From Chromobacterium sp. IIBBL 290-4 (lineage in GTDB: Bacteria; Pseudomonadota; Gammaproteobacteria; Burkholderiales; Chromobacteriaceae): a DNA stretch of 64,000 nucleotides. This document shows positions 15,673 through 18,631 of the stretch, in pieces; position 1 is the stretch's first letter; every line of letters starts with the position of its first letter. Under the pieces are notes generated by a model, which worked only from the letters and a program-made list of their open reading frames with translations, made no database searches and was not told the DNA's origin. The stretch covers positions 310,001 to 374,000 of the forward strand of contig NZ_CP100128.1 of the NCBI RefSeq assembly GCF_024207115.1. The letters are read 5' to 3'. Both the position numbers and the translations under genes were made by a program.

Positions 15673-16752
15673 TTACAGATCGTCGGCGGTGAAAAACAGC
15701 GGGATGCCGTCGCGGCTTTCCGGCTGCAGTTCCGGCAGCACATGCACCTCGCGCACGTGGCATTCGCGCATCAGCTCGCGGAAGTTCTCTTCTATCAGCT
15801 GGACGTTGTCCAGCGAGGCCAGCGGCCAGACGAAGCCTTCCCAATTGCGATCATCCCCCTGGGCCGACAAGGTGAAGTGCACTTCGCCATTATTGTGGGC
15901 GGACAGAATGGCCACCGGCTCCAGGTTCAGTTCTCGCAGATGGCGGATCTGGCTGCTGGCGAACACTTGCAGCGCCACCTCGAAGCGGGCGAAGTTGCCG
16001 GCCACCAGCGCCTGCATCGCCGGCAGCGGCGGACGGGCGATGGGGAACAGCGTCACGCCATCGGCTTTCAGCTGCTCGCCCAGAAACTTCATCACCGGCA
16101 TGCCCCAGACGCCGACGGAGCCGCCCAGCCTCACCGGCGGCTCCTCGCCCTCGCGCTGAATGGCCACGCCTATCATATAGCGCAGGAAAACGCCCTCTTC
16201 CTTCACCGTCACCGGCGCGGCGCGGTTCGGCAAGCCCTCGCGCGCCGCCTCGCCCTGGCGAGTCATCTTATATAGCTTGAGCGTATCCAGGCCGATCAAA
16301 TCGTCCGGATGGGACAGAATGCCGGATATGGTCACATCGGCGCCGTCGGCGAACACGCCATGCTGTCGCAGCAACGCGTTCAGGCCCGCCGCATCGGCCA
16401 CCGCCCCCGGCAGCTCGGTCTGGCTGCGACTGCCCGCCACCAACACCAGCGGCATGGCGAATACGATGGCGCGCGCGCCGCCGGTTTCTTCCACCGCGTG
16501 GCGCAAGGCATCCCACACCACTTGATAGCAGGCTTGCGTCGGCACCATCGCCAAAGCCACCGAAATCGACAACACCTCGTCGCGCTGCAGCATTTCATCC
16601 ATCGCGCCGGCCAAGGCCTGGCGCCACATCTCGCGCTCGCCGGCATCCGGCGCGTCCAGCACGGACTGGGCATGATGGATCAGGCGGTTGGTCAGGGATA
16701 CTTGAGGGTGATACTGGCGCGGATCGGGAAGGGTATGGCGGACGGCGTCCAT
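15673..16752 (-). CDS. Hypothetical protein, 359 residues
   Basis: A cytoplasmic-looking protein with no signal peptide, membrane segment or motif I recognise. It is neither low-complexity nor repetitive. It contains a hydrophobic core strand (ARAIVFAMPLVLVAGS) and a C-terminal half with mixed alpha/beta character. The start at 16752 is supported by AGGA 8 bp upstream. Convergent with the LysR gene. Codon usage fits the genome and the frame is long, so it is a real gene; the function is unknown. Confidence 0.78.
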   Translation of the reverse strand: MDAVRHTLPDPRQYHPQVSLTNRLIHHAQSVLDAPDAGEREMWRQALAGAMDEMLQRDEVLSISVALAMVPTQACYQVVWDALRHAVEETGGARAIVFAMPLVLVAGSRSQTELPGAVADAAGLNALLRQHGVFADGADVTISGILSHPDDLIGLDTLKLYKMTRQGEAAREGLPNRAAPVTVKEEGVFLRYMIGVAIQREGEEPPVRLGGSVGVWGMPVMKFLGEQLKADGVTLFPIARPPLPAMQALVAGNFARFEVALQVFASSQIRHLRELNLEPVAILSAHNNGEVHFTLSAQGDDRNWEGFVWPLASLDNVQLIEENFRELMRECHVREVHVLPELQPESRDGIPLFFTADDL

Positions 16753-16930
16753 GGGCTGACATCCTGCTGCAATCGAAAAGAACGTATTGTGGCACAGCTG
16801 CCACGCTAGCGCTCGCCCGCTCAAGCGCATTCACATGGCCCGCGACCCAGCAAAATCAGCCCTCCCCGCCAGCAATGTGCATAGTTGCGACAAAAAATTA
16901 CATTTCTCGACATTTTCGAAAACGCACATG

Positions 16931-16959
16931 TTGACACTCGCTACCGCAATCCGGATAAT
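16931..16959 (+). promoter_or_regulatory. Strong sigma70-type promoter of candidate sRNA
   Basis: TTGACA (16931-16936), a 17-bp spacer, then GATAAT (16954-16959), which is one mismatch from consensus overall. A perfect palindrome TTTTCGAAAA lies at 16913-16922, just upstream of the -35, and could be an operator or upstream element. Predicted transcription start near 16966-16968. There is no reading frame of note downstream before the terminator. Confidence 0.7.
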
Positions 16960-16966
16960 CCGTTCT

Positions 16967-17058
16967 CGTTGAGATGCAGCAATTGCTTCTTGATAGTTTC
17001 TCCTCTATTTCTCCTTTGTAGACTTGGCGCGGGCCGAAAGGCACCGCGCATTTTTTTT
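16967..17058 (+). ncRNA. Candidate small regulatory RNA (about 92 nt) with tandem anti-SD motifs
   Basis: Defined by the promoter at 16931-16959 and the terminator at 17027-17058. Between them lies a CU-rich, probably single-stranded stretch with two identical copies of TTTCTCCT (16997-17004 and 17008-17015). Each holds CUCCU, the complement of a Shine-Dalgarno AGGAG. The 3' end is a GC stem followed by eight U, as Hfq-bound RNAs usually have. This architecture is like that of trans-acting sRNAs that block ribosome binding sites. I do not recognise it as a named RNA; related CU-rich sibling sRNAs exist in Neisseria, but identity is not claimed. Confidence 0.55.
17027..17058 (+). terminator. 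Intrinsic terminator of candidate sRNA
   Basis: Stem GCGCGGGCC with GGC-A-CCGCGC (one bulged A at 17043) closed by a GAAA tetraloop (17036-17039), followed by eight T (17051-17058). Very strong and clearly oriented to the plus strand. Confidence 0.88.
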
Positions 17059-17533: not shown

Positions 17534-18631
17534 ATGACCATCCAGCAACTCTCCCTGAACGGTTTCCGTTCCATACGCAAACTCACGCTGGAGCTGGATG
17601 CGCTCAACGTCGTCATCGGCCCCAATGGTTGCGGCAAATCCAATCTCTACAAAGCCATCCATTTAGTGCATGCCGCAGCGGAAGGCCGGCTGTCGGCGGC
17701 GCTGGCGCAAGAAGGCGGCATTCAAAAAGCGATGTGGGCCGGCGGCCCCAGGCGCGGCGACAAGGCCCGCGCGCCGAAGAGAATGATCCTCTCCACCCGG
17801 CTGGACGACTTCGACTACGAGCTGCAATTAGGCTATCCCGAACCCAGCGCCAGCCTGTTCAGCCTCGACCCGTTGGTGAAGGAGGAAAGCCTGTGGCTGG
17901 CGGGCCATGGCCGCCGCCCCTCCACCTTATTGCTGGAACGGCGCAATCAAGCCGCCTTCCTGTCCGGCGTGGACGGCGAACGCAACGCCTATCCGGCCAG
18001 CTTGCGCGCCGAAGAGTCCATCTTCGGTCAACTTGCCGAGCCGCATCGCTACCCCGAGTTGTCGCAACTTCGCGAAACGCTGCGCAATTGGCGCTTTTAT
18101 CATGAGTTCGCGGTCTGGCCAGGCTCGCCCTTGCGCGCGCCGCAAGTCGGCATCCGCTCGCCGGTATTGGCCCACGACGGCGCCAACCTGGCCGCCGCCT
18201 TCCAGACCATTGTCGAGATCGGCGACCGCGAGCTGCTGCGCCATGTGCTGGCCGAAGCCTTTCCCGACAGCCATTTCCAGGTCGATGCCGCGCAGGGCCG
18301 GTTTCAAATGCTGATGCAGCGCGAGGGCTTGCTGCGGCCGCTGGAGGCCGCCGAACTGTCCGACGGCACGCTGCGCTTTCTCTGTCTGGCCGTCGCCCTG
18401 CTCAGCCCTCGCCCGCCAAGCTTTCTGGCGCTGAACGAGCCGGAAAACAGCCTGCACCCCGCCCTGTTGCCCGCCCTGGCTCGCTTGATCGCCGAAGCCA
18501 GCCGCTACAGCCAGATCTGGCTAACCAGCCACTCGCCGGCCTTGGCCGAGATGATCCGCCGCCATCGGCCGCTGAAGATATTTCCACTGGCGCTCAAGGA
18601 TGGCGAAACCACGCTGGCCGAGGAGGCGTAA
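17534..18631 (+). CDS. AAA family ATPase (RecF/SMC-like, single protein)
   Basis: A 365-residue ABC/SMC-type ATPase. It has FRSIRKLTLELD before Walker A (GPNGCGKSN, near residue 30), a signature-like LSDGTLRFLCLAVAL near residue 275, and a Walker B variant FLALNEPENSLHP in which Asn replaces the usual first Asp. A late His/Ser switch (LTSHSPALAEMI) follows. There is no coiled-coil arm and no nuclease (TOPRIM or HNH) domain. Such short OLD/RecF-like ATPases occur both as housekeeping orphans and as defence components, but no partner gene is adjacent. Function unknown. Confidence 0.85.
   Translation: MTIQQLSLNGFRSIRKLTLELDALNVVIGPNGCGKSNLYKAIHLVHAAAEGRLSAALAQEGGIQKAMWAGGPRRGDKARAPKRMILSTRLDDFDYELQLGYPEPSASLFSLDPLVKEESLWLAGHGRRPSTLLLERRNQAAFLSGVDGERNAYPASLRAEESIFGQLAEPHRYPELSQLRETLRNWRFYHEFAVWPGSPLRAPQVGIRSPVLAHDGANLAAAFQTIVEIGDRELLRHVLAEAFPDSHFQVDAAQGRFQMLMQREGLLRPLEAAELSDGTLRFLCLAVALLSPRPPSFLALNEPENSLHPALLPALARLIAEASRYSQIWLTSHSPALAEMIRRHRPLKIFPLALKDGETTLAEEA

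Follow-up and report, generated by a model that had tools for sequence, protein, structure and literature searches.

An NmsR-family RNA gene in Chromobacterium

The DNA analysed here, a 64,000-nucleotide stretch of the Chromobacterium sp. IIBBL 290-4 genome (hereafter the window), very probably encodes, in one copy, the counterpart in the Chromobacterium family of the NmsR/NgncR (RcoF) riboregulators, an RNA that would block Shine-Dalgarno (SD) sites and whose best target would be prpC. Positions 16966-17055 of the forward strand match the Rfam model RF02877 (NmsRb) over its full length (model positions 1-91 of 91) at 98.3 bits, compared with a gathering cut-off of 52. This is the sole gathering-level Rfam match within the window, and the genome as a whole contains one RF02877 match. 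A sequence-only reading of the same DNA had proposed a Neisseria-type small RNA with two anti-SD motifs and an Rfam covariance search as a check. The full-length match above the cut-off, together with the conservation and covariation described below, supports that proposal; the accompanying implication that the RNA is of an unknown type does not hold, as Rfam's NmsRb model detects it. Judged by its sequence, the RNA is a member of the NmsR family, a kind known from another host lineage, and the assignment is well supported.

RF02877 NmsRb corresponds to Neisseria NmsRA/NmsRB (N. meningitidis), to NgncR_162/163 (N. gonorrhoeae) and to RcoF. The Neisseria NmsRs and the Chromobacterium RNA have in common three hairpins, anti-SD motifs in the linker and in loop 2, a terminator, a TTGACA/GATAAT promoter (PMC5362039 gives the same boxes for NmsRA) and complementarity to the prpC leader. 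They differ in arrangement: the meningococcal NmsRs form a tandem pair between dsbB and lrp, whereas the Chromobacterium RNA is present as one copy and has different gene neighbours. The tandem pair is a Neisseria trait that lies outside the RF02877 model. The RNA also shows a weak, 26.2-bit resemblance to mmgR (Rfam RF00519, suhB), confined to the CU-rich part and the terminator and below that family's cut-off of 41, and so is not a member. No report of an NmsR in Chromobacterium appeared among the literature matches listed, which comprised titles and the starts of abstracts and included few subscription papers.

The RNA is found throughout the family. In a search of 61 genomes with stricter filters, RF02877 matches above the cut-off occurred in all 37 from the same genus and family, 36 of which contained one match and one (G029) two, giving the 38 loci referred to below. 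Among the 24 genomes of other families, two displayed a sub-threshold match. Across 399 genomes of the order, searched with these same filters, 56 contained an RF02877 match at E<=0.001, 30 of them above the cut-off. A scan of named contigs for the core motif yielded 87 stretches, of which 80 (L050-L129; the named loci) were among the matches listed; these belong to records under the names Chromobacterium, Aquitalea, Vogesella, Pseudogulbenkiania, Paludibacterium, Crenobacter, Neisseria, Snodgrassella, Eikenella and similar genera, and one record bears the doubtful name Xenophilus.

Promoter, terminator and upstream boxes

The sequence predicts an RNA gene with its own sigma-70 promoter and intrinsic terminator. 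The -35 box TTGACA (16931-16936, forward strand) is present in 38/38 loci, while the -10 box GATAAT (16954-16959, forward strand) is found in 37/38, the remaining locus having CATAAT; the 17-bp spacer is likewise preserved in 37/38. These boxes and their spacing lie where the earlier reading had placed them, and the GC hairpin it described, capped by a GAAA loop and trailed by eight T residues, was also confirmed. The hairpin, stem-loop 3 (17027-17049, forward strand), carries one bulged A and is followed by the eight T at 17051-17058. When 2.2 kb were scanned for promoters, three sites were found against 0.8 expected, the promoter of the RNA scoring 11/12 matches; its discriminator reads CCGTTC. 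A terminator scan of the same 2.2 kb did not list the hairpin at 17027-17049, probably because its stem is bulged.

The two anti-SD motifs are identical copies of TTTCTCCT that start 11 bp apart, as had been claimed and as re-reading of the coordinates confirmed. The first (16997-17004, forward strand) occupies the linker that joins stem-loop 1 to stem-loop 2, and the second (17008-17015, forward strand) the loop of stem-loop 2, its first base being in the stem. The arrangement TTTCTCCT-N3-TTTCTCCT, allowing at most one mismatch, occurs once in the 64 kb and was absent from 100 shuffles. The 27 bases that make up the core, and which include both CUCCU motifs, are identical in 38/38 loci, and the terminator too is conserved in relatives, which is consistent with the initial interpretation; the assessment of promoter, core and terminator also drew on the 21 distinct sequences among the 38. 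As the 38 loci were obtained from covariance-model hits, they offer a fairer test of motif conservation than the named loci, whose retrieval required the core motif.

The same comparison separates two candidate elements upstream of the promoter. The palindrome TTTTCGAAAA (16913-16922), which had been put forward as a control site, is exact in only 9/38 loci and is found in the looser form TTNCGNAA in 22/38; it is weakly conserved at best, and these counts make a general control site at this position unlikely. A GCGACA box (16887-16892, forward strand), 44 bp upstream of the -35 box, is conserved in the family, occurring 38-48 bp before the -35 box in 33/38 loci (500 shuffles: mean 0.06, maximum 2). 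By eye, GCGACA was absent from 21 upstream stretches of other lineages.

Contrary to the statement that no ORF is present between the promoter and the terminator hairpin, an ATG frame of 15 codons occupies 16974-17021 of the forward strand. Its peptide, MQQLLLDSFSSISPL, is identical in 31/38 own-family copies, and an ATG frame ending at the same TAG is present in 34/38, raising the idea of a dual-function RNA or a leader peptide. The DNA of this region is nearly invariant in any case, and the frame occurs in just 1/56 copies from other lineages, so its presence is probably incidental. The start codon would also fall ~9 nt into the predicted transcript, lacks an SD site, and opens a frame that runs across hairpins 1 and 2. 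Translation of the frame is therefore very improbable, and we continue to treat the predicted transcript as an NmsR-type regulatory RNA.

Fold and covariation

The RNA is predicted to fold into three hairpins (MFE -29.1 kcal/mol, z -2.41; 3/200 shuffles as good): stem-loop 1 at 16968-16994, stem-loop 2 at 17004-17022, both on the forward strand, and the terminator hairpin. In this fold only the final base of the linker is paired, and only the first base of the loop-2 motif. An architecture of three stem-loops with unpaired UC-rich anti-SD motifs in the linker and in loop 2 is that of NmsRb, to which the modelled structure conforms.

Covariation was assessed in an alignment (A2) of 97 copies, 69 of them distinct, drawn from the 80 named loci; the conservation of the motif in A2 arises by construction. 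Within A2, 99.4% of the cells pair, although A2 had been fitted to the structure of the model, a procedure that biases cells towards pairing. Both sides have changed in 13/21 pairs, a number reached in 0/500 shuffles, and the covariation score is 0.545, compared with 0.223 after shuffling and at most 0.082 when the partners were slid. The signal is distributed between two of the hairpins. In stem-loop 1, 9/10 pairs have both sides changed in some copy and 99.0% of cells are paired, and in stem-loop 3 the same type of change affects 4/6 modelled pairs. The stem of stem-loop 2 is invariant among the aligned copies, and covariation hence speaks neither for nor against it.

Copy number and gene neighbourhood

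A model (R1) divides the 80 named loci into 41 that score above 100 bits and 39 others. The 41 contain one RNA copy each, while two or three copies are present in 16 of the other 39, within fetched stretches of up to 8 kb. The neighbourhood follows the same division. In the window the RNA is adjoined by a divergently transcribed gene (15673-16830, reverse strand) encoding a 385-residue protein that is conserved family-wide and gave no match to Pfam at 0.001 or to NCBIfam at 0.1; a relative of this gene is located near the RNA in 38/41 loci above 100 bits and in 3/39 of the others. Beyond it glyA is often found, in loci truncated to 8 kb at most. In one Neisseriaceae metagenome-assembled genome (L068, 4970-5951), three tandem NmsR copies are adjoined by glyA and by a gene distantly related to the divergent neighbour, an organization that may be intermediate between those of Chromobacterium and Neisseria.

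On the other side of the RNA, an AAA-ATPase gene begins at 17534 on the same strand, and the transcript might instead be the attenuator or leader of this gene and not act in trans. The ~475 bp that separate the terminator from the gene argue against such a role, as does the presence of the AAA gene in at least 6/80 named loci compared with 80/80 for the RNA; since the loci were fetched by the RNA core and cut at 8 kb or less, the count of six is a lower bound. Attenuation is extremely improbable, which leaves an RNA that acts in trans as the reading pursued below.

Targets known in Neisseria and predicted in Chromobacterium

The meningococcal NmsRs cover the SD sites of genes of the TCA cycle and of propionate metabolism. 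Their reported targets are prpB, prpC, gltA, sucC, sdhC and fumC, and the linker and loop-2 motifs repress all six target fusions in Escherichia coli; prpC and prpB are reporter-validated targets of NmsRA, both anti-SD motifs being required for five of its six targets. In native meningococcus sdhC and fumC were not confirmed as targets, and RelA reduces NmsR levels (all as described in PMC5362039). The gonococcal siblings regulate amino-acid and TCA metabolism, and the neisserial siblings bind Hfq and are stabilized by it, according to PMC9973317. The Chromobacterium genome encodes hfq.

In view of these data, the leaders of the corresponding genes were scored for pairing in ten genomes of the family, which are related and thus do not constitute ten independent tests. 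Pairing energies ignored accessibility, and rows below 40% identity were dropped; acnD was represented in 9/10. The background comprised 233 ORF starts (mean -11.2 kcal/mol), among them prpC and gltA themselves; for each ORF the start with the best SD site was taken, and some of these starts are wrong.

The prpC leaders of the ten genomes (nine distinct) gave -16.2 to -22.9 kcal/mol, values that 0.4 to 8.2% of the background starts equalled or bettered. Their mean was -19.2 with the real RNA segment and -12.4 with shuffled segments, 1/500 of which were as low. In L209 and L210 the leader reads AAGTCTGACAAAGGAGAAATTGC, which is almost fully complementary to loop 2 and the bases 3' of it. The other reported targets fared less well. 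For gltA, scored in all ten leaders, pairing was of intermediate strength, averaging -15.1 kcal/mol; 5.6-37.3% of the background starts and 32/500 shuffles were as low. In the ten genomes the leaders of prpB and sdhC were at background (130/500 and 183/500 shuffles as low, respectively), as was that of sucA (254/500), and the glyA leader in the window contains no AGGAG. The neighbouring genes included as a comparison (a lipoamide-dehydrogenase-like gene, sdhA, acnD and one more) were also at background. On these data prpC, which encodes methylcitrate synthase, is the best-supported candidate target, and one that is likely conserved. It should be noted that other background genes reach equally low energies, as an anti-SD motif pairs with any good SD site.

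In a rival interpretation, the RNA is an NmsR-family member whose main role is directed not at prpC but at lineage-specific mRNAs in which a perfect AAAGGAGAAA or AGAGGAGAAA site occurs, namely those for a copy of metE, for 4-hydroxyphenylpyruvate dioxygenase, for ETF-quinone oxidoreductase and for peptidases. The genome contains 22 exact ARAGGAGAAA sites, two of which are the small RNA itself, compared with nine for the reversed control pattern, and 12 of the other 20 are located 2-8 bases before the start codon of a frame of at least 40 codons. The seven products scanned were three peptidases, HPPD, MetE, ETF-QO and a pilin. For metE, the only gene followed across genomes, 25 loci were compared, from which six without a located start were dropped: the site is kept in 4/4 close orthologues but in 0/15 of the further metE-type leaders whose start was located. 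Strong SD sites are, moreover, expected in strong genes anyway. A main role in such a lineage-specific set is doubtful, and prpC is retained as the leading candidate target.

The mechanism we propose begins at the near-consensus sigma-70 promoter, from which an RNA of ~90 nt would be made that folds into three hairpins and ends at the intrinsic terminator. By analogy with Neisseria, the UUUCUCCU motif of the linker and the UUUCUCCU motif of loop 2 would pair with the purine-rich SD sites of target mRNAs, and ribosome entry at these targets would be blocked, probably with the aid of Hfq, as suggested by the Neisseria work. With prpC as the best-supported target, the RNA would restrain propionate use, presumably under some particular nutrient state.

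A second, divergent RNA resembling RF02278

The genome contains a second, unlinked CU-rich RNA with the three-hairpin plan (G000:C1:2741436-2741538, forward strand; positions 1464-1566 of locus L042), flanked by the genes for a nucleoside phosphorylase and for ribosomal protein L13. This sibling matches the Betaproteobacteria toxic small RNA family (RF02278; Burkholderia ncS03/05/27/62) at E<=1e-4 in 37/37 genomes of the genus and family, three of them above the cut-off and 34 below, and no sibling in these 37 genomes exceeds the RF02877 cut-off. A model (R2) built from 19 distinct sibling sequences finds one per genome in 37/37, 24 of which supplied those sequences and match by construction. 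RF02278 RNAs resemble the window RNA in their CU-rich anti-SD motif and in their hairpin and terminator, a structural similarity to the NmsRs that has already been noted (PMC5688073). The window RNA scores 34.2 bits against RF02278, which models two hairpins only, and since this is below the gathering score of 50 it is not a member of that family.

The matches of R2 extend to NmsR copies and to loci of RF02278. In 281 kb from 41 chosen sources, mostly known holders of a family member, all 51 hits at E<=1 fell at known sites of either family, some loci being present twice in the searched DNA, and none were found in the two long own stretches (L198 and L208). That the hits are restricted to known sites of both families supports a single superfamily. 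We consider the chances evenly balanced that the NmsRs and RF02278 are one ancient family, of which the Chromobacterium family keeps two separately controlled members while Neisseria has expanded one in tandem. Convergence on CU-rich anti-SD motifs is a possible source of the resemblance between these sequences, given that R2 reached only E=0.024 on the window RNA itself and 0.45 on L038.

The sibling has an upstream element of its own. The palindromic box TGCNNNGCACAAAA (1410-1423 in L042; also in L041, L175-L177 and L179-L197) is located above the sibling's promoter in 24/24 loci, 20 of which have the form TGCRNTGCACAAAA, and the genome holds 11 sites compared with three for a control pattern. 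Recognition by PhaR, the polyhydroxybutyrate regulator, was considered and rejected when no clear granule genes were identified by eye at these 11 sites. A similar sequence, TGCATTGCA, occurs upstream of one NmsR copy (L054) and of the RF02278 loci L169 and L171. The sibling was also considered as a second prpC regulator; in the 2/10 leaders scored, the energies of -16.3 and -10.5 kcal/mol were not convincing when compared with the mean of -13.9 for the sibling's background.

Biological significance

The data presented above suggest that the NmsR riboregulators, studied in two human pathogens, form part of a larger group, with environmental relatives of Chromobacterium among its hosts. Pairing with prpC, reported in Neisseria and computed here, appears to have been kept, while some of the other pairings are weaker. 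The single-copy locus and its one divergent sibling would constitute a simpler system, free of tandem redundancy, and the existence of the sibling is a reason to examine the Rfam families RF02877 and RF02278 as one.
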